Assembly: GCF_004087915.1 (NCBI RefSeq)
Contig: NZ_CP035108.1
Span: 2,356,001 to 2,420,000, forward strand
Reading direction: 5' to 3'
Source: Geovibrio thiophilus
Lineage (GTDB): Bacteria > Chrysiogenota > Deferribacteres > Deferribacterales > Geovibrionaceae
Length of the DNA stretch: 64,000 nt
Both the position numbers and the translations under genes were made by a program. Positions 26,601 to 63,452 of the stretch are shown here, in pieces (the first letter of the stretch is position 1; every line of letters starts with the position of its first letter). The notes below the pieces were generated by a model. It was given only the letters and a program-made list of their open reading frames with translations, searched no databases and was not told the DNA's origin.

Positions 26601-26727
26601 AGATTGAAGGGTGTACCCTAAATGGCGTAAACAACTCCAAGGACGGAGTTGCGCCGTGCGAAGCGAAGGCGGGTTCATCCCGCCGCAAGCGTGTACATCA
26701 AACTGACAGGATGTGCGGTTTGAGACC
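26601..26727 (-). repeat. Single copy of the modular palindromic repeat
   Basis: In minus-strand orientation it has stem I (CAAACCG / CAGTTTG, imperfect) with loop CACATCCTGT, the linker TACACGCT, stem II GGCGGG/CCCGCC, the conserved CGCACGGCGCA, and stem III CAACTCC/GGAGTTG. The last part is decayed. It lies between yajQ and the degP terminator. Confidence 0.75.
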
Positions 26728-40128: not shown

Positions 40129-40129
40129 A

Positions 40130-40196
40130 AGACTTCCGCGTCGCTGCGCTCCCCGAAGTGATTCAAATATCCGTCATTGCCAGCGAAGTGAAGAAA
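40130..40196. repeat. Decayed dispersed repeat
   Basis: Contains GACTTCCGCGTCGCTGCGCTCC and CCGTCATTGCCAGCGAAGTG, relatives of the GTCATTGCGA blocks near 11.0, 52.5 and 63.4 kb. Lies between convergent genes. Confidence 0.5.
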
Positions 40197-48143: not shown

Positions 48144-48232
48144 TGCGCATAACAGCAACTCCAAGGACGGAACCACGCCGTGCAAACCGCGGGTGTGTAC
48201 ACCAAACTGACAGGATGTACAGTCCGGTGTTA
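48144..48232 (-). repeat. Partial copy of the modular palindromic repeat
   Basis: On the minus strand the stem ACACCGGACTG / CAGTTTGGTGT includes two G-T wobble pairs around the conserved loop TACATCCTGT. The conserved TACAC and GCACGGCG linkers and a decayed third stem follow. It abuts the 3' end of rnpB. Confidence 0.65.
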
Positions 48233-48239
48233 TAAAAAT

Positions 48240-48602
48240 AAGAAGACCTATAAGCCGGATCCTGTCTGAGCCCTTCTTAAGGGGCTGAGGCAGTCATTAA
48301 TCTAGACCGGAGATTGCTCTCAGGCTCAAGCGGTTTACCCGTGAGCTCGGGCGGGCAGCCCTAAAATGCTCACCTATTTAACCTTGCACCGGACGGGGTT
48401 TACCGTGCCTCCGCCGGTCACCCGGCAGAGCGGTGGTCTCTTACACCACCGTTTCACCCTTACCTGTCTTTTCAGACTGGCGGTCTGTTTTCTGCGGCAC
48501 TTTCCCTGCATCACTGCACGTCGGCGTTACCGACCGTCCTGCCCTGCGGTGTCCGGACTTTCCTCCCGCACGCGAACGCACCGGCGACTGCCCGGTCTTC
48601 TT
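48240..48602 (-). ncRNA. rnpB: RNase P RNA (class A)
   Basis: About 363 nt on the minus strand. The 5' part has GGAGGAAAGTCCGGACACC, the centre has GAAACGGTGG...AGAGACCACC, and the 3' part has ACAGGATCCGGCTTATAGGTC; the ends AAGAAGACC and GGTCTTCTT pair. These are the P4 and J-region signatures of bacterial RNase P RNA. It forms the catalytic part of the tRNA 5' maturation enzyme. Confidence 0.95.
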
Positions 48603-48687
48603 ACCGAGTTGGAAAACTAATACCTTATGCGGCAAAACGCAATATATTTCGCTTTTATTTAGTATATGCAGGATGTATAGTTCCGCC

Positions 48688-50577: not shown

Positions 50578-51882
50578 ATGGGACTTAAGGACGTTCTTAA
50601 GAAGAAAATTGATGAGCATCGCCCCAGAATCGCCAAACTCACTAAAGAGTTCGGTGACGTAAAACTTGGCGAAGTAACAATCGGACAGGCTATCGGCGGT
50701 GCAAGAAGCGTTAAGTGCCTTGTTACCGACATTTCATATCTTGACCCGGTGGAAGGAATCCGCTTCCGCGGTCTTACAATACCTGAAGTAATGGAAAAAC
50801 TCCCCAAACCAAAAGGAAAAGACTATCCTTACGTTGAGGGCTTCTGGTACTTCCTTCTTACAGGTGATGTCCCCACTATGGCTCAGGCCGAAGAAGTGGT
50901 TGAAGATTTCAAAAAGAGAGCTCAGGTTCCTCAGTATGTTATAGATGTTCTCAGAGCTATGCCCAGAGACACTCACCCCATGACTATGCTCTCTGCTGCC
51001 GTGGTTGCCATGCAGCGCGAATCAAAATTCGCTAAATTCTACGCTGAAGGCTTCAACAAAATGACTGCGTGGGAGTCCATGTATGAAGATTCATGCGACC
51101 TCCTCGCCAAGCTTCCCGAAATCGCAGCCTACATCTACAGAATGAAATATAAAGGCGACACACCCATCGCTTCCGACATGAGCCTTGACTTCGGCGGCAA
51201 CTTCGCTCACATGATGGGCATTCCCGCTCCTTATGACGATGTTGCGAGAATGTACTTCGTTCTTCACTCAGACCATGAGTCAGGAAACGTTTCCGCTCAT
51301 ACGACGCACCTTGTGGCTTCCGCTCTCAGCGATGCTTACTACTCTCTTTCAGCAGGTCTCAACGGTCTTGCGGGTCCCCTTCACGGTCTCGCAAATCAGG
51401 AAGTTCTCGGCTGGATTCAGGACGTGTATGCTAAACTCGGCGGAAAAGTTCCCACTAAGGAAGATCTTAAAAAATTCCTCTGGGATACTCTCAACAGCGG
51501 TCAGGTTATTCCCGGATACGGTCACGCCGTTCTCAGAAAAACAGACCCGAGATACACTTCTCAGCGTGAATACTGCCAGAAATACCTTCCCGAAGATGAA
51601 CTCTTCAAGGTTGTGGCAATGATTTACGATGTTGCTCCCGACATCCTCATGGAGCACGGAAAAGCCAAAAACCCATGGCCCAACGTGGATGCTCAGTCCG
51701 GCGTTATCCAGTGGTTCTACGGTCTCAGAGAGTACGATTTCTACACAGTTCTTTTCGGTGTGGGCAGAGCGATCGGCGTTCTTGCGAACATCACTTGGGA
51801 CAGAGCTCTCGGCTACCCGATCGAGCGTCCGAAGTCTGTTACTACAGACATGCTGGAAGCCGCTGCGGGAATCAAAAAATAA
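50578..51882 (+). CDS. gltA: Citrate synthase, eukaryote-like
   Basis: 434 aa. The block H-S-D-H-E-S-G-N-V-S-A-H-T and G-L-A-G-P-L-H-G-L-A-N-Q-E-V-L is nearly that of mitochondrial citrate synthase, unlike the usual bacterial enzyme. Catalytic His residues (in S-D-H-E... / P-L-H-G and P-G-Y-G-H-A-V-L) and Asp (Y-D-F-Y-T-V-L-F-G-V-G-R) are present. Similar enzymes are known from Geobacteraceae. It condenses acetyl-CoA with oxaloacetate; in some relatives citrate synthase can also run backwards in CO2 fixation, but nothing here shows that. AAGGAGG precedes the ATG and a hairpin terminator follows. Confidence 0.96.
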   Translation: MGLKDVLKKKIDEHRPRIAKLTKEFGDVKLGEVTIGQAIGGARSVKCLVTDISYLDPVEGIRFRGLTIPEVMEKLPKPKGKDYPYVEGFWYFLLTGDVPTMAQAEEVVEDFKKRAQVPQYVIDVLRAMPRDTHPMTMLSAAVVAMQRESKFAKFYAEGFNKMTAWESMYEDSCDLLAKLPEIAAYIYRMKYKGDTPIASDMSLDFGGNFAHMMGIPAPYDDVARMYFVLHSDHESGNVSAHTTHLVASALSDAYYSLSAGLNGLAGPLHGLANQEVLGWIQDVYAKLGGKVPTKEDLKKFLWDTLNSGQVIPGYGHAVLRKTDPRYTSQREYCQKYLPEDELFKVVAMIYDVAPDILMEHGKAKNPWPNVDAQSGVIQWFYGLREYDFYTVLFGVGRAIGVLANITWDRALGYPIERPKSVTTDMLEAAAGIKK

Positions 51883-51956: not shown

Positions 51957-52534
51957 ACAACATCAAACTGCACATCCTGTCAGTTTGATGTACACGCTCG
52001 CGCCGAACTCGGTTCGGCTTCACTCCGCACGGCGCAGCCCCATCCTTGGGGCTGTTTTGCGTCATTGCGAACCCTGAAAGGGTGAAGCAATCTCTCATTT
52101 AATAACATCAAACTGCACATCCTGTCAGTTTGATGTACACGCTCGCGCCGAACTCGGTTCGGCTTCACTCCGCACGGCGCAGCCCCATCCTTGGGGCTGT
52201 TTTGCGTCATTGCGAACCCTGAAAGGGTGAAGCAATCTCTCATTTAACAACATCAAACTGCACATCCTGTCAGTTTGATGTACACGCTCGCGCCGAACTC
52301 GGTTCGGCTTCACTCCGCACGGCGCAGCCCCATCCTTGGGGCTGTTTTGCGTCATTGCGAACCCTGAAAGGGTGAAGCAATCTCTCATTTAATAACATCA
52401 AACTGCACTGTCCTGTCAGTTTGATGTACACGCTCGCGCCGAACTCGGTTCGGCTTCACTCCGCACGGCGCAGCCCCATCCTTGGGGCTGTTTTGCGTCA
52501 TTGCGAACCCTGAAAGGGTGAAGCAATCTCTCTG
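51957..52534 (+). repeat. Tandem array of four 145-bp modular palindromic repeats
   Basis: Units begin at 51961, 52106, 52251 and 52396 and are almost identical; the fourth has one inserted base in the first loop. Each unit has stem I CATCAAACTG/CAGTTTGATG (loop CACATCCTGT), stem II GCCGAAC/GTTCGGC, the linker CGCACGGCG, stem III CAGCCCCA/TGGGGCTG (loop TCCT), and GTCATTGCGAACCCTGAAAG with a short ACCCT/AGGGT stem, then GAAGCAATCTCT. Open frames through it merely follow the period. A related repeat block continues to 52582. Confidence 0.92.
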
Positions 52535-52537
52535 GAT

Positions 52538-52582
52538 ATTTCAGAGACTGCCACGTCGCTTCGCTCCTCGCAGTGACATTGT
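52538..52582 (+). repeat. Dispersed repeat block next to the array
   Basis: AGACTGCCACGTCGCTTCGC followed by TCCTCGCAGTGACATTG; the same block, slightly changed, lies at 63392-63425 and, inverted, near 11080-11107. Confidence 0.6.
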
Positions 52583-52654
52583 AATACGTCATCCTGTCAG
52601 TCTGAGGTTATTGAAGAACAGAGGACCACCTTCCTTACGCTCCTATTCCGTAAA

Positions 52655-52668
52655 TTGATATTGATCAA
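52655..52668 (+). promoter_or_regulatory. FNR/CRP-type box
   Basis: TTGATATTGATCAA equals the TTGAT-N4-ATCAA consensus exactly. It lies 60 bases upstream of the NIT-domain chemoreceptor start. Confidence 0.65.
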
Positions 52669-52682
52669 TTATTTTTCGTTAA

Positions 52683-52700
52683 TTGTAATATATATTACAA
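52683..52700 (+). promoter_or_regulatory. Perfect 18-bp palindrome
   Basis: TTGTAATATATATTACAA, 28 bases before the chemoreceptor start. Probably a second operator or overlapping the promoter -10 region. Confidence 0.45.
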
Positions 52701-52727
52701 ACACTTATTTCTGATAAAGGTGACGCC

Positions 52728-54698
52728 GTGAAAAATATGTCTATCAAAACAAAAGTACTCTCGGCACTGTTAATCCCGTTTATTATGCTTACTTTTTACA
52801 CTGCTTCCGGTCTGTTTCAGGATGCGGATGTACTGACGAAAACCAAATCTCTCAGACATTTTGTGGAGTTCTCAGTCTCATCAAGCGCTCTGGTGCACGA
52901 ACTCCAGAAGGAGAGAGGGCTTTCCGCAGGCTATCTCGCAGGCGGAGAACAGTCTTTTCTCAACAGACTGAACACACAGTACGAGTCCACGGATGACGCT
53001 CTGAAAAAAGTGCGCAGCGCCCTGAGCGGCGGATCGTTCACCTCCGGAAACATCCGTCAGGCAATGAGCGGGCTTGAAAACCTCTCCAAAATGCGCAGAG
53101 AGACAGCAGATAAACTCACGGATTCCGCGCAGGTCATAAATTACTACACCGAAATCAACAAACTGTTCCTCGACGCTGTTTCGGAGGCTGCTGCAGGCGT
53201 AAATGATCCTCAGCTCGCCAAGGACACTATAGCTTATACAAACTACATGAGCGCTAAAGAACAGACAGGGCTGCTGCGTGCAGTACTTGCTTCCGCCTTT
53301 GCGGACGACCGCTTCGGTGACGGCATGTACGAAAAATATCTCCGTCTGACAAGCGAAAGAAGCGCCTACCTCACCTCGTTCGGGTGGACTGCCCGCACAG
53401 AGTTCAGGCAGAGCTCTGATGCCGCCGAAAGCTCCGACTTCAGCCGAAAAGCCTCAGAAATGGAGAAAACAGCCGCAGTCAAAGGACTTGAAGGCGGATT
53501 CGGTGTCGATGCGGAAGAGTGGTTCAGCCTGATTACGCAGAAAATAAACGCAATGAAGGAAACGGAAGATCTCATAGCCCTTTCCATGAATACATACATG
53601 AACTCCGAAATCAGCTCAGCCAAACGTCAGCTCACTCTCACAGGCGCAGCGGCGCTGGTCGGTCTTACAGCCTTTGTGTCCCTTGTGTATATTCTCCTTC
53701 TTTCGGTTATAGGCAATATCCGCATGCTGATCAGTCTGACTGCTCAGCTTAACGAAGGTGACGGCGATCTGACAAGGCGGATAAATGTCACAAACAAAGA
53801 TGAAATAGGCGAACTGGCGGCGAATGTGAACTGCTTCATAGAAAATATCCAGTTTCTGGTGAGCGGTACGGCAAAGTCAGTATCGGTGGTGGCTTCGGGA
53901 ACAACGCAGCTCGCAGCGGCAGTGGAGGAGCTTTCCGTAACCTTCAGCGACCAGTCAGAGGAAGTCAGCGGAATAGCCGCCGCCATGAGCGAAATGAGCA
54001 CAACGGCTGTTTCCATAGAGGAGAATATCAAAGATGTTGAAAAAGCAGCGGAATCCGCCACGAAAAGCATCTCTGACGGACGCGCCGAACTGGACAGTAT
54101 TGTGCATCTGATAACAGCAGTAAAAAATGACAGCGACAGTCTGGCGAAAACAATAAAAAGGCTGGGCGAAACCTCCCACGAAATTGGAGATATTGTAAAA
54201 GTCATAAATGAGATAGCCGATCAGACCAACCTTCTGGCACTCAACGCCGCAATCGAAGCCGCCAGAGCCGGTGACGCAGGAAGAGGCTTCGCTGTGGTTG
54301 CGGACGAGGTCCGAAAGCTCGCCGAAAAAACACAGTCTTCCACAGGAGAGATAATCAGTATAGTGACACTGTTCAAAACGGAAACGGAAAACGCCATCAA
54401 AGGGGCGGAAGCGGCATCAGGAAACATTGAGAAATGCGTTGCTCAGTCGGAAAGCACTAAAAACGCATTCGACAGAATAAATGAGGCGGTGTCGGATGTC
54501 ACAGGAAAAAACAGTATAATAACTCTCTCCGTCAATGAGCAGTCCGAAGCGATTCAGCACACAGGGCACAGCACAACAGGAATCTCCGCCGGAATAGAGC
54601 AGAGTGCCGCCGCTGTTAATGAAATAGCCGAAACCCTCAGTGAACTTGAATCCACAGCGGAGTCACTAAGACAGTCCATCGAACAGTTCAGATACTGA
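52728..54698 (+). CDS. Methyl-accepting chemotaxis protein with NIT (nitrate/nitrite-sensing) domain
   Basis: 656 aa; GTG start with AAGG at good spacing. A membrane helix (about 8-25), a periplasmic NIT domain (about 45-290, [14 protein letters not shown]), a second helix (about 305-330), a HAMP domain, and a signalling domain with the hairpin tip [23 protein letters not shown] domains bind nitrate or nitrite in known receptors. The FNR-type box upstream fits anaerobic expression. Confidence 0.93.
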
Positions 54699-54702
54699 CC
54701 CA

Positions 54703-54746
54703 AGGGGGCTTTGTCTTTCTTTACAGCTTGCTGACAGAGCCCTTTT
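54703..54746 (+). terminator. Terminator of the chemoreceptor gene
   Basis: GGGCTTTGTC ... GACAGAGCCC stem, ending in TTTT. Confidence 0.7.
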
Positions 54747-54890
54747 AAAAGTAAGAAAGTATATACTTTTGAACAATCCTGTTCCTGTCTCAGTCACCAG
54801 TCCTGCAAAGAGGCATTGCCCTCCATCAAAGTTTAAGGCTTCAAATAAACTTATATTGCATTATCCGGCTTATGTTTTTATAGTGAGGAT

Positions 54891-55250
54891 ATGAAAATAA
54901 TCCTTATTATTCTTGGTTTTATGTCACTCTTTCTCGGCATAATAGGCGTTTTCCTTCCTGTTATGCCCACTACCCCGTTCATACTTCTGGCGGCGGCGTG
55001 CTTCGCCCGCAGCTCTGAAAAATTCCATAAGATGCTTTTAAACAACAGATATTTCGGAAATATTGTCAGAAATTATGAAAACGGTCTCGGCATAAGCCGC
55101 AGAATAAAGATCCGCGCTCTCACCCTGCTGTGGTTTTCGCTTATTTTTTCATCCGCGATCTCAGGCAGCCTGATTGTGTTTCTTGTCCTCACTGCCGCAG
55201 GTACGGGCGTAAGCTGGTATATACTCAGCCTGCCCACATTTACGGATTAA
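54891..55250 (+). CDS. YbaN-like (DUF454) inner-membrane protein
   Basis: 119 aa with three to four hydrophobic segments; the DUF454 signature P-V-M-P-T-T-P-F-I-L-L-A-A-A-C-F-A-R-S-S is clear near residue 25. Function of the family is unknown. Convergent with the sirohaem-synthase-like gene, with the two stops adjacent. Confidence 0.9.
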   Translation: MKIILIILGFMSLFLGIIGVFLPVMPTTPFILLAAACFARSSEKFHKMLLNNRYFGNIVRNYENGLGISRRIKIRALTLLWFSLIFSSAISGSLIVFLVLTAAGTGVSWYILSLPTFTD

Positions 55251-55658
55251 TCAGCCTCGCCTTGTCTTAAGCAGCTCTTTTATTTTATCAAAATCGCTGG
55301 TTTCTCCCTCTTCGCCTCTTTCAAGAACGAAGTCCGAGAGCAGAGAGTTATTCTGCACGAATACAGGCACATGAGCCTTACGCGCCCATGCCGCCGTTTC
55401 GGCGTCAACCTCTGAGTCACCCGTCACGGCGAAAACGAAGTAATATGACGAATCCACATCGCTTTCCTCTGCCCACCTCTGCTCAAACTCAATCCGCCCG
55501 AACCTGTGAAAAAGCTTTATATTTTCGGTACATGCGGGTGAAATCACCTTAATTTTCGGGTCATGTCCGAGAAAAGAGACAAGCAGCGATTCGGCTTCCG
55601 CACCTCCCCCTGCCACAAGAATTTTTTTATCAGTAAGATTGAAAATAAACGGAACCAT
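55251..55658 (-). CDS. Precorrin-2 dehydrogenase/sirohaem synthase N-terminal-like domain protein
   Basis: 135 aa. The Rossmann fold with V-A-G-G-G-A-E-A-E (G-G-G in place of G-G-G-x-V-A) and the following V-I-S-P-A-C-T-E resemble the NAD-binding domain of CysG/Met8. It is shorter than Met8 and lacks the C-terminal ferrochelatase-type part, so it may do only the oxidation step or have drifted in function. It follows a protein that weakly resembles cobyric acid synthases, which keeps a tetrapyrrole theme possible. Confidence 0.7.
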   Translation of the reverse strand: MVPFIFNLTDKKILVAGGGAEAESLLVSFLGHDPKIKVISPACTENIKLFHRFGRIEFEQRWAEESDVDSSYYFVFAVTGDSEVDAETAAWARKAHVPVFVQNNSLLSDFVLERGEEGETSDFDKIKELLKTRRG

Positions 55659-55677
55659 ACAAGGAGCCTCCCTTTTG

Positions 55678-56865
55678 TCAGAAAATATTATTTCTCACTA
55701 TGCACTTCTCGCTCAAAACACTGAGCGCGCGATCCGCTATGATATATTCGGAAAAATCAGGCTTAAGCTTTAGCGGCATCTGAAGCAGATTACGCACGGG
55801 TTCACTCGCTGTCTCTCCATGGAAGGGGATTCCGGCGAAGAGATATTCCCCGCTGATGCTGATCGGGTGGAAAAGCCACTTTTCTCCGCTGAAGCGGAAC
55901 TTGGAGCAGGCAAGCCTCTTACCGCCGCGCACCACTGACTCGTAATCGCCCAGACCGAGACCGGAGAAGATCCCCGCCTCAGAACCGCTTTCAAAGCTGA
56001 ATCTGGTTCCCAGCATGGAAAACCCCGTGCCGAAAGCCACAACGGATTTCTTTCCGAACAGCTCTTTCAGCTTAATGTCAAACCCTCTCTTTTCAAGAAA
56101 AAGCAGGTCTCCTCTGGGGTTCTCGCTGGAGGGAACAATGATTATATTGCATTCGTCAGCCTCATGGGGCTCGTTTATCAGGGATACGCTGAAATCCATG
56201 GACATGAGAAAAGGCGCTGTGTCATTGCAGTCCGTCATGAACGGGAGATTTATCACTCCAGTCTTCACTCCGTCCGTATTGCCGAAGATGCACAGATCAG
56301 GCAGAATCTCAGCTTCCGGCAGGTTTTCAGGCACTGCGGCTATCACAGCCAGAGGGGGTTTGGAGAGAAAGCTCCAGCTTTTTTCCGAAAGAAGAGCGCC
56401 CTTCATAAGTGCCCGGAGATCATCGGAAGCCTTATCCCACACAGCCTTGACAGACACGCTGCTTCCGCAGAGAAAAACTCCTCCGCATATAAGCCCCGCC
56501 AGTTCCTCGCCCCACTCGCCGCAGTCAGAGTCCAGAACAAGAGCTATGCGGTCGTAATCCGCACTTTTTGAGATTTCCTCAAGGCGTGCCGCCGCCTTTT
56601 CATAATCTTCCGAATCGGGAACCTTCCCCGCCTTCAGGCGGAGCGACATCAGATAAGCCGCATTTATGCCGCATGCGAGAGACAGCATAAACGCATCCGC
56701 CGGAACCCCTGCTCCGCACAATGTGTGAGACATACGGGGAGAGAACGGGACGGGGATGAACGGAAAAACACTCTCGCCGCCGGAGGTCAGCCTGCGCAGA
56801 ACAGCAGCAAGGGGTACAAGTCCGCCCTCATCACATATGAGAAAAGTAAAACCCTTATAAACCAA
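55678..56865 (-). CDS. Unrecognised protein, weakly like cobyric-acid-synthase-type amidotransferases
   Basis: About 395 aa. A TTG start at 56865 is preferred because AGGAG lies seven bases upstream; an ATG at 56886 has no ribosome-binding site. The N-terminal part resembles a nucleotide-binding domain (F-L-I-C-D-E-G-G). In the C-terminal part G-T-G-F-S-M-L-G resembles the C-G-G-Y-Q-M-L-G nucleophile elbow of CobQ/CobB proteins with the Cys replaced, so a glutaminase activity is unlikely. I cannot name the family. It lies 19 bases upstream of the sirohaem-synthase-like gene in one operon. Confidence 0.6.
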   Translation of the reverse strand: MVYKGFTFLICDEGGLVPLAAVLRRLTSGGESVFPFIPVPFSPRMSHTLCGAGVPADAFMLSLACGINAAYLMSLRLKAGKVPDSEDYEKAAARLEEISKSADYDRIALVLDSDCGEWGEELAGLICGGVFLCGSSVSVKAVWDKASDDLRALMKGALLSEKSWSFLSKPPLAVIAAVPENLPEAEILPDLCIFGNTDGVKTGVINLPFMTDCNDTAPFLMSMDFSVSLINEPHEADECNIIIVPSSENPRGDLLFLEKRGFDIKLKELFGKKSVVAFGTGFSMLGTRFSFESGSEAGIFSGLGLGDYESVVRGGKRLACSKFRFSGEKWLFHPISISGEYLFAGIPFHGETASEPVRNLLQMPLKLKPDFSEYIIADRALSVLSEKCIVRNNIF

Positions 56866-56960
56866 TGGAACACTCCTGTTTAACATATATAATTTAAAAC
56901 AGAATCGGTAAAAGAACAAACCATATTGCCCGATTATTCTCTTTCTGGTAAATTCTGATC

Positions 56961-58115
56961 ATGGAAAATTCATCAATAATTATATTTCTTCTCGGATTCG
57001 CGGCAGGTGCCGGAGTCTGCGCGGTTTTCTTCAACCTTCTGTCCGGAAAGCAGGAAGCCCTCAAGCTTGATGCTGAAAAAACAGTGACCGCAATGGCGGA
57101 GCAGCTTAAGCTGAGCTTTTCGGGACTTTCCCTTGAGGCGCTTTCCCGAACCACCGCAGAGCTTATGAAGCACATGGAAAGTGAACGAAAGGCAGGGGCT
57201 GCTCAGCTTGACGGAAAAAAAGCGCTTATAGACGCGCAGCTCGAAAAAATGACCAAGGAGCTCACTGAGGTTGAAAAGCTTGTAAAAGAGTTTGAGAAGG
57301 ACAGGGAATCCAAATTCTCAGCCCTTTCCGAGCAGATACGCCACACATCCAGAAACGCAGAGGAACTCTTTCGGGTTACATCATCCCTCAAGGAAGCGCT
57401 CTCCTCCACAGGCAAACGGGGGCGCTGGGGCGAACGCATGGCTGAGGACATACTGAAATCAGCCGGATTCATGGAGAATGTCAACTACTACAGACAGAAA
57501 ACCCTGAAAACCTCCGGCAGCAGACCGGACTACACCTTCATAATGCCGAACGGCGCTATTCTCAACATGGACGTGAAGTTCCCGCTGGAGAACTACCTCA
57601 AATATCTTGACGAAACGGAGGAAGCGGCGGCAAAAGCACGAACCACCGCCTTTTCAAAGGACGTTAAGGAGCGCATAAAAGAGGTGTCAGGCAGAGATTA
57701 CATAGATCCTGCGGAAAATACTCTGGATTTTGCGATGCTGTTCATCCCCAATGAGCAGATATTCGGGTTCATGATGGAGAAATGTCCGGATGTTCTGGAC
57801 TTCGCCTTTGAAAAAAAGGTCGCCCTTACCTCGCCTGTTTCGCTGTTCTCCGTGCTTGCGGTGATAAGGCAGGCGGCAGAGAACTTCCGCCTTGAGCAGA
57901 CCTCGTCCGAAATACTCGCCATTATGGGCACATTCCGCAAGCAGTGGGATCTCTTCACCGGAAAGATGGAAGGTCTCGGCAAAAGGATAGAGGATGCCGC
58001 AAAGGAATATGAGCTTTTAAGCGGAACCCGCCGGAGAATGCTTGATAAGTCCCTTGAAAAGCTGGATTCGCTGGGCTTGGAAAAAATAAGCGCGGACAGT
58101 CCGGAAGAGGACTAG
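56961..58115 (+). CDS. rmuC: RmuC-family DNA recombination protein
   Basis: 384 aa. An N-terminal membrane helix (I-I-I-F-L-L-G-F-A-A-G-A-G-V) and a coiled coil (about 45-140) precede the nuclease-like domain with G-K-R-G-R-W-G-E, R-P-D-Y-T-F-I-M-P and D-V-K-F-P-L-E-N-Y, the family signature. RmuC limits inversions at short repeats. Its stop lies 15 bases before a repeat array. Confidence 0.95.
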   Translation: MENSSIIIFLLGFAAGAGVCAVFFNLLSGKQEALKLDAEKTVTAMAEQLKLSFSGLSLEALSRTTAELMKHMESERKAGAAQLDGKKALIDAQLEKMTKELTEVEKLVKEFEKDRESKFSALSEQIRHTSRNAEELFRVTSSLKEALSSTGKRGRWGERMAEDILKSAGFMENVNYYRQKTLKTSGSRPDYTFIMPNGAILNMDVKFPLENYLKYLDETEEAAAKARTTAFSKDVKERIKEVSGRDYIDPAENTLDFAMLFIPNEQIFGFMMEKCPDVLDFAFEKKVALTSPVSLFSVLAVIRQAAENFRLEQTSSEILAIMGTFRKQWDLFTGKMEGLGKRIEDAAKEYELLSGTRRRMLDKSLEKLDSLGLEKISADSPEED

Positions 58116-58130
58116 ACAAGCAATGGGACT

Positions 58131-58406
58131 GTTTTGAATTATTGCGAACCCTGAAAGGGTGAAGCAATCTCTGTCTTGCCACAGAAAAGGGCACGTCCTG
58201 TCCCTTTTCTGTACACGCTCACGCCTTGCAAAGCAAGGCTTCGCTTCGCACGGCGCAACTCCGTCCATGGAGTTGAATACGTCATTGCGAACCCTGAAAG
58301 GGTGAAGCAATCTCTGTCTTGCCGCAGAAAAGGGCACGTCCTGTCCCTTTTCTGTACACGCTCACGCCTTGCAAAGCAAGGCTTCGCTTCGCACGGCGCA
58401 ACTCCG
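58131..58406 (+). repeat. Second tandem array of the modular repeat (about two units, 143-bp period)
   Basis: Units start at 58182 and 58325. Stem I is now CAGAAAAGGG/CCCTTTTCTG around CACGTCCTGT, stem II GCCTTGC/GCAAGGC around AAA, and stem III CAACTCC/GGAGTTG. The linkers TACACGCTC, CGCACGGCGCA and GTCATTGCGAACCCTGAAAG are the same as in the 52-kb array. The last unit is cut off at the end of the cytochrome b5/DUF2231 gene. Confidence 0.9.
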
Positions 58407-58410
58407 ATAC

Positions 58411-59103
58411 TCAGCCCCAAGTTATTTTGCCGCCGTTAAAGCCGATAATAGCCATGACAGGGAGATTCAGGAACAGAAGCCCGTTGTAAAGGTTGGAGAC
58501 TCCGGTTCCTGCGGCAGAGATAGCCGGATCGCTGAATCTCAGCCACATTTCAGCCGTGCACATCAGAAGCAGCAGGGCAGAGAAAGCTATCTTCGTTATA
58601 AACACATTCGATGTGGCGTAGTGATAATTAACCCACCAGCTGAAAAAGCCCGAAGCTATTGTAGGAATGAGGGCAGCACCGCCGGCAGCCATGCAATGGA
58701 ACGCTGTTGTTTCAAAGCTCGGCTGTCCCGTGAACAGAAACATTGCCTGCATAAACACCGCAAAGCTCAGAAGCCCCATGGGGAAATGTATAAACATCGG
58801 GTGCGGATGAAGTTTTCTGTAAACATCCCTCAGCATTGCCTTAAATTCATCGGAAGATACGCTCTGCACCTGCGCCACCGATTCCGTGAGCGCCTCAACT
58901 GGCTGTATCCTTGAAAAAACCTCGTCGGTGTGGGGAGCTTTCTCCAGATCCTCGGTGAGATCCCTCCCCGCGAAATGTCTCTTAACGTGCTGACCGCTTT
59001 TCCACAGTCTGCTGTCAGTCACATCGTAAACATGACCCTTGTAGCCGATATATGCCCTGCGCCCTTCTTTTCCGTCAAACTTGCTGAGTTCTTCCCTGTC
59101 CAA
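58411..59103 (-). CDS. Cytochrome b5-like/DUF2231 membrane protein
   Basis: 230 aa. Residues about 1-65 form a cytochrome b5-like haem domain (Y-K-G-H-V-Y-D-V-T, then two His in G-Q-H-V and K-A-P-H as likely ligands, H-P-G-G motif lost). Residues about 90-230 are a four-helix DUF2231 membrane domain (L-H-P-H-P-M-F-I-H-F-P-M-G-L-L). Such fusions are probably membrane electron-transfer proteins. No redox partner is nearby. Confidence 0.85.
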   Translation of the reverse strand: MDREELSKFDGKEGRRAYIGYKGHVYDVTDSRLWKSGQHVKRHFAGRDLTEDLEKAPHTDEVFSRIQPVEALTESVAQVQSVSSDEFKAMLRDVYRKLHPHPMFIHFPMGLLSFAVFMQAMFLFTGQPSFETTAFHCMAAGGAALIPTIASGFFSWWVNYHYATSNVFITKIAFSALLLLMCTAEMWLRFSDPAISAAGTGVSNLYNGLLFLNLPVMAIIGFNGGKITWG

Positions 59104-63365: not shown

Positions 63366-63391
63366 GTCATTCACAAAGGCATAAAGACTGA

Positions 63392-63452
63392 GACTGCCAC
63401 GTCGCCTTGCTCCTCGCACGCAGTTCACTGTCATTATTCGGTAAACAATCTC
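63392..63452. repeat. Dispersed repeat block
   Basis: GAGACTGCCACGTCGCCTTG followed by CTCCTCGCA and later CACTGTCATTATTCGG and CAATCTC, a decayed relative of the block at 52538-52582. Confidence 0.5.

Follow-up and report, generated by a model that had tools for sequence, protein, structure and literature searches.

Dispersed three-hairpin repeats with CsrA-type GGA loops in Geovibrio thiophilus, probable mRNA-borne docking modules

What kind of element are the palindromic repeats that recur between the genes of Geovibrio thiophilus, and do they matter as DNA or as RNA? The question is raised by a stretch of 64,000 nucleotides (nt) of this genome, hereafter the window (positions 2356001-2420000 of a single contig of 2,997,552 bp). 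There, a preliminary description noticed copies that share linkers and loops and have different stems that stay paired, and proposed that a structure, perhaps that of an RNA, is conserved and that the copies are more than repeated sequence. Our main finding is that the sequence comparisons identify a structured RNA element of about 95 nt, composed of three hairpins, with compensatory changes above shuffled and slid controls. Its functional strand is likely the complement of the one first described, and on that strand the loops of two hairpins match the published binding site of CsrA. We therefore consider it probable that the repeats are mRNA-borne CsrA docking modules of 3' untranslated regions (UTRs) and intercistronic spacers.

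Used as a BLAST query, one unit found 138 places across the genome, and R2, a covariance model built on the 95-nt core, detected at least 150 copies; the two other genomes of the genus, from sister species, gave 136 and 149 matches. Units are solitary or in tandem, and in G. thiophilus 164 parsed units form 72 arrays of one (25 arrays), two (19), three (15), four (10), five (2) or six units (1). The element is intergenic: across 153 arrays there was no overlap with a called gene, the gene calls around arrays being those of a codon-score script and not of an annotation. The retrieved loci contained 282 parsed units, 164 from G. thiophilus and 62 and 56 from the sisters (G001 and G002), for each of which 40 stretches around model matches were retrieved, so that only occupied sites are counted there. 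Units of tandem arrays are concerted. At one locus (L049, genome positions 1566669-1567141), adjoining non-repeat sequence was duplicated along with the unit, and array growth can therefore copy flanks. At four others (L043, L044, L052 and L037) the inner units lack part of hairpin III, which is whole only in the last unit, and the duplication breakpoints lie in or near stem III. Some copies are found at contig ends.

Read on the strand first described, a unit consists of stem I (variable, 11 bp), the loop CACATCCTGT, stem I', the linker ACACGCTCGC, a variable stem II, the linker TTCGCTTCGCACGGCG and a variable stem III with the loop NTCCNT. The first linker is ACACGCTCGC in 251 of the 282 units of the three species. 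These units contain 126 distinct stems I (paired at 9 or more of 11 positions), 49 stems II and 71 stems III, and stem I variants turn up combined with a variety of stems II and III; the parts are thus modular. All stem variants initially described in the window are present: ACATCAAACTG/CAGTTTGATGT (at 51960-51991 and in three further units) versus ACAGAAAAGGG/CCCTTTTCTGT (58181-58212) for stem I; GCCGAAC/GTTCGGC, GCCTTGC/GCAAGGC and, in the copy at 26.6 kb, GGCGGGA/ACCCGCC for stem II; CAGCCCC/GGGGCTG versus CAACTCC/GGAGTTG for stem III. The degenerate copy at 48.2 kb does have two G.T pairs in its stem I, ACACCGGACTG/CAGTTTGGTGT. The repeats reported at 51957-58406 are also there, not as a single stretch but as two arrays (array 1, 51960-52540, and array 2, 58141-58406) with several genes between them. 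Elsewhere, chimeric hairpins I (L058, at 2466159, and L031, at 1516) have arms from different stem types and pair incompletely.

In six folds of 95-nt units (three units, both strands), z ranged from -2.6 to -6.5, and 0 to 2 of 200 shuffles folded equally well. For covariation, the 78 distinct units listed were reduced to 61 with a stem III and to 57 in a first alignment (A1). A second alignment (A2, 36 rows) comprised 35 units of A1 and one sister copy short at the left arm, omitting near-duplicates and the second class of loop I, whose pairing is shifted by one. Among these 36 units, 90.6% of cells were paired, against 69.9% after shuffling and 29.5-41.6% with slid partners; a double change was seen in 22 of 27 base pairs, and none of 500 shuffles reached the real value on any of five covariation measures. 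As kinship between units can inflate such counts, orthologous sites weigh more. Matching the flanks of G. thiophilus arrays to the retrieved sister loci (median flank identity 83%) revealed 22 arrays whose site also carries an element in a sister. This makes 24 pairs, and the orientation is the same in each of them. In the 21 comparable stem I pairs, 48 differences are compensatory (both sides changed, paired in both species) and 14 one-sided, and all 21 comparable orthologous pairs retain GGA in both loops. The site of array 1, for example, carries stem I ATCTCAATCCG/CGGATTGAGAT in a sister in place of ACATCAAACTG/CAGTTTGATGT, while that of array 2, after rmuC, is empty in a sister (L066). 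The variants are thus not exact copies of one ancestor, and the early proposal of a conserved structure is supported by covariation far above both controls.

Which strand carries the function is another matter. The preliminary description missed that the other strand probably counts, the one on which the loops carry A(N)GGAN. Where the two neighbouring genes are co-directional, the complement strand is sense in 74 arrays and antisense in 16 (n = 90; p = 4e-10, a value that, like the next one, assumes independent arrays or stems, whose independence is not full). Sense to antisense ratios are 29:11 in G. thiophilus, and 21:2 and 24:3 in the sisters (together 45:5). Moreover, of the 148 arrays with a called gene next to stem III, 121 have that gene pointing into the element, and 42 of these genes end within 10 nt of it. 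Wobbles point the same way, with 42 G.U in interior pairs of distinct stems on the GGA strand versus 18 on the other (p = 0.003). The complement is supported as the sense strand, with replication as a confounder that is weighed below.

On this strand, the loops of hairpins III and I match the site recognized by CsrA and its homolog RsmE, as judged by sequence. Nuclear magnetic resonance of RsmE with RsmZ stem-loops (PMC4005645) defines that site as an A(N)GGAX loop whose closing pair is C-G, with N and X free and N absent from 5-nt loops; likewise, the review PMC7652899 gives CAGGA(U/A/C)G for the CsrB repeats and RUACARGGAUGU as the consensus from systematic evolution of ligands by exponential enrichment (SELEX). 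Our loops were parsed by anchoring on the linkers and not on GGA, within a collection that had started from BLAST and model matches to a single unit type. In 246 distinct units, GGA occupies the loop in 182 of 187 well-paired hairpins I and in 170 of 191 hairpins III, but in only 2 of 235 hairpins II, and the loop is exactly A.GGA. in 144 of the 191 hairpins III. The RNA strand of 163 hexaloops III reads A (159), N (C26/U92/A40/G5), G (152), G (159), A (163) and X (C32/U83/A44/G4), so that N and X are the only free positions. The closing pair is C-G in 159 of these hexaloops and in 130 of 133 AGGAN pentaloops of hairpin I. Hairpin I falls into two classes: one has the pentaloop AGGAX, with AC/GU, GC/GC or UC/GA as closing pairs, and the other has ANGGAX, with CC/GG. 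The GGA loops of one unit are about 69 nt apart, and 119 of the 164 G. thiophilus units have GGA in both. In a control with five composition-matched permuted loops and random stretches, the window had 11 AGGA hairpins versus 0, and the genome of a related genus (G003) 9 versus 0; counts elsewhere were 1 versus 0 (G023), none (G017, csrA present), 1 versus 1 (G020, csrA-less) and none (G025, csrA-less). The genome encodes CsrA (PF02599 at 452962-453120, E 5e-25), directly beside fliW (L065, about 452890-453600).

We propose that each unit displays two CsrA-type hairpins, both C-G closed: III with an A-N-GGA-N hexaloop and I with an AGGAN pentaloop or ANGGAN. Hairpin II, devoid of GGA, would be a spacer between them, and CsrA dimers would dock at both GGA hairpins of each unit. 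Spread over some 70 spacers, the arrays of 1-6 units could then constitute a distributed mRNA-borne CsrA reservoir, with an effect comparable to that of CsrB/RsmZ, and each array may act locally on the upstream message at its end or on the downstream message at its start. CsrA control normally involves dedicated sponge RNAs or FliW. A wider proposal, which we advance only tentatively, is that dispersed repeats became a genome-wide reservoir for a global regulator, with about 250-300 potential CsrA docking hairpins per genome, selection keeping site and orientation while stems turn over, and a counterpart with this architecture in another family of the order. The transcriptome itself would then set the level of free CsrA, in FliW-carrying bacteria without a matched Csr small RNA (sRNA). 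If true, CsrA-type hairpins behind scores of genes would represent a different regulatory architecture, and palindromic repeats would have a function-based reason to persist, loops being selected and stems free. Sites, orientation and loops recur across the three species on stems that differ, which provides natural variants for a direct test.

Several observations weigh against CsrA docking. GGA is missing from one or both loops in 45 of the 164 G. thiophilus units. The commonest hairpin I loop has no N, and 5-nt loops of this form are reported as weaker binders (PMC4005645); SELEX hairpins mostly had no more than 4 contiguous pairs (PMC7652899), so that 11-bp stems may be unfavourable. The CsrA of this host has FliW, which is a different antagonist. 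The link to csrA is weak. This gene was detected in 31 of 39 genomes. The absence of R2 matches from the six csrA-less genomes searched with that model is a test of low power, as R2 also lacks matches in most of the genomes that carry csrA outside two families, and csrA-less genomes have one AGGAU hairpin (G020) and one strong single-hairpin match (G018). A clean correlation between the element and the presence or absence of csrA was sought and not obtained. Within the window, array 2 fits a simple 3' UTR picture: the 3' end of the Cyt-b5/DUF2231 gene abuts it, which makes it the 3' UTR of that gene in the GGA-loop sense. Two of the four window loci do not fit: array 1 and the copy at 26.6 kb lie antisense to the genes on either side and would need their own promoter, and a sequence scan around array 1 found no sigma-70-like promoter there. 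At 48.2 kb, both G.T pairs of the degenerate copy turn into A.C when the GGA strand is read. Finally, the complement strand is also biased towards the leading strand in G. thiophilus: assuming a terminus opposite dnaA, leading-strand gene pairs are 21 sense to 4 antisense, and lagging-strand pairs 8:7. Replication alone would hardly yield the 45:5 of the sisters unless nearly all of their gene pairs were leading-strand.

The alternative that survives best, unlikely as we judge it, is that the repeats are palindromes akin to repetitive extragenic palindromic (REP) sequences and bacterial interspersed mosaic elements (BIMEs), spread as mobile DNA, with at most roles in mRNA-end protection, translation damping or the nucleoid, and with a loop that is a founder relic or a transposase mark. 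High copy number, intergenic placement, tandem arrays with concerted units, mosaic stem combinations, copies at contig ends and the empty site after rmuC are all as expected from such palindromes. The likeness extends to REPINs and REP-associated tyrosine transposases (RAYTs), the subject of PMC2817692 and PMC3116915: short intergenic palindromes in more than 100 copies, tandem or composite. Unlike these, the element has fixed loops on freely varying stems, a match to an RNA-binding site, and orthologous retention. A relic does not explain why two of six loop positions vary freely while A, GG and A are fixed, and mobile DNA does not explain an unchanged orientation at orthologous sites despite stem turnover. 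Nor was the REP-associated transposase envisaged at the outset found: Y1_Tnp had 0 matches in the three element-rich genomes (G000, that of G. thiophilus, and its congeners G001 and G002), in a search that was positive for 5 of 14 control genomes.

Less likely still, the hairpins are read by a factor other than CsrA, either another RNA-binding protein or the ribosome, AGGA loops serving as a standby site or a decoy Shine-Dalgarno for the downstream gene. AGGA is indeed also a Shine-Dalgarno core, 27 of 87 co-oriented downstream genes start within 30 nt of an element, and the element of two relatives (G007 and G023) abuts a ribosome-binding site. However, loops of 5 or 6 nt on stems of 7-11 bp would leave little room for pairing with 16S rRNA, and the free N and X and the C-G closing pair obey the Csr/Rsm rule. 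Lastly, a structure acting at the DNA level, with hairpin arms whose complementarity is maintained through template switching or arm-templated repair, or a recognition site in single-stranded DNA, transcription being irrelevant, would account for stem changes that are nearly always complete pairs and for a strand bias that also tracks replication in G. thiophilus, but is very improbable, as it predicts neither the 74:16 sense bias, notably the 45:5 of the sisters, nor the G.U excess on one strand and the free N and X within a fixed loop.

Compared with known systems, the element shares with CsrB/CsrC and RsmX/Y/Z several hairpins per RNA and C-G closed A(N)GGAX loops, with CAGGA(U/A/C)G repeats, but it has longer stems and is dispersed in many intergenic spacers beside genes instead of residing in one or a few dedicated sRNA genes. 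A sponge sRNA has a dedicated gene with a promoter; the elements lie in gene spacers, and the surroundings of array 1, the only ones scanned, have no promoter-like site. Rfam searches of the window and six loci matched the element to no Csr/Rsm sRNA family and no other known family. The flaA mRNA of Campylobacter jejuni titrates CsrA. As in our proposal, an mRNA and not an sRNA is the CsrA target there, in a FliW-containing bacterium (PMC4894983). One abundant mRNA leader is involved in that case, in contrast to a repeat family in many messages here. The TwoAYGGAY RNA has two hairpins with GGA-containing AYGGAY loops, and our element likewise has two hairpins with GGA loops of AYGGAY form. That motif was reported from the human gut, gamma-Proteobacteria and Clostridiales (PMC2864571); it had no match at E <=5 in six loci, the content of Rfam 15 for this motif not being checked. 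The TAACTGA repeats of Beggiatoaceae are also genome-wide, intergenic and a proposed target of an RNA-binding protein, but PMC4679880 deems CsrA unlikely because they lack GGA, whereas GGA is the conserved part here. The element may thus work like CsrB/RsmZ hairpins and resembles REP/BIME, without having the full definition of either. In the open-licence literature searched, we found no description of the element or of CsrA-linked dispersed repeats and no paper on repeats of G. thiophilus. PMC5338858 contains no repeat or UTR terms.

Outside the genus, R2 matched at E <=0.01 in 8 of 23 genomes. Distant relatives, in two genera of the same family (g4 and g2) and two of another (g9 and g13, family f6), retain the loops with other linkers and stems. 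In G007 (g4) the parts follow one another in the same order and the loops are ACGGAG and AUGGAU, and G003 (g2) has GGCUUCC-AUGGAU-GGAAGCC and GGGAAAUUCUC-AGGAU-GAUGAAUUUCCC with different linkers. Family f6 (G016, G023 and congeners) has GGA hairpins such as AAAAAAUAC-AAGGAU-GUAUUUUUU, often after a short AGGAN or AGGGAU hairpin in the loci read, and g13 has hairpins of the AUACAAGGAUGUAU type. A generic model of a 9-bp ANGGAN hairpin gave, at E <=1, 59, 14, 5, 10 and 4 matches in five g13 genomes and 0-3 in each of the others among 39; it misses most copies of Geovibrio because it requires a 9-bp closed hexaloop. By these sequence matches, a related element is present in another family of the order Deferribacterales. 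At two G007 loci (L127 and L151, near 1480-1620), elements lie between two copies of the ribosome-binding or start region of the downstream gene, as if inserted or duplicated with that region.

Table 1. Repeat units, palindromic modules and flanking genes in the window (window coordinates)
Feature	Position	Strand	Remarks
Single copy	26632..26726	+	RNA strand +; hairpin III loop AAGGAC; stem II GGCGGG/CCCGCC; hairpin I partly mispaired
Degenerate copy	48157..48230	+	RNA strand +
Citrate synthase gene	50578..51882	+	Upstream of array 1
Array 1, unit 1, three-hairpin core	51960..52054	-	Order on RNA (-): III (loop AAGGAU), II, I (loop AGGAU, closed AC/GU)
Palindromic module around TCATTGCGAACCCTGAAAGGGTGAAGCAATCTC	52071..52103	none	Separate, between units
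Array 1, unit 2	52105..52199	-	
Array 1, unit 3	52250..52344	-	
Array 1, unit 4	52395..52490	-	Loop I with one additional base
Further TCATTGCGAACCCTGAAAGGGTGAAGCAATCTC modules	about 52216-52248, 52361-52393, 52507-52539, 58141-58173 (or 58176), 58284-58316 (or 58319)		
NIT/HAMP/MCP chemoreceptor gene	52728..54698	+	Downstream of array 1
rmuC	56961..58115	+	Before array 2, convergent
Array 2, complete unit	58181..58275	-	Hairpin III loop AUGGAC, hairpin I loop AGGAC
Array 2, second unit	58324..58406	-	Hairpin III truncated close to the end of the neighbouring (-) gene
Cyt-b5/DUF2231 gene	58411..59103	-	3' end abuts array 2

The degenerate copy, taken as 48157-48235, and the RNase P RNA gene on the opposite strand (48235-48603, -) lie a few bases apart, the gene with its 3' end towards the copy. 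The TCATTGCGAACCCTGAAAGGGTGAAGCAATCTC module that accompanies the units also occurs on its own in other genera of the family; the letters of the accompanying GTCATTGCGA...GCAATCTC module and related motifs had no relevant match in the papers searched. A GAGACTGCCACGTCGC...TCGCAGTGAC motif, at 40129-40157, 52544-52572 and 63390-63418, is a variant of the outer palindrome with a different core. Next to array 1, the sequence at 52580-52640 (ATACGTCATCCTGTCAGTCTGAGG...) resembles half of a hairpin I fused to another repeat, and a similar fusion is found at L054.

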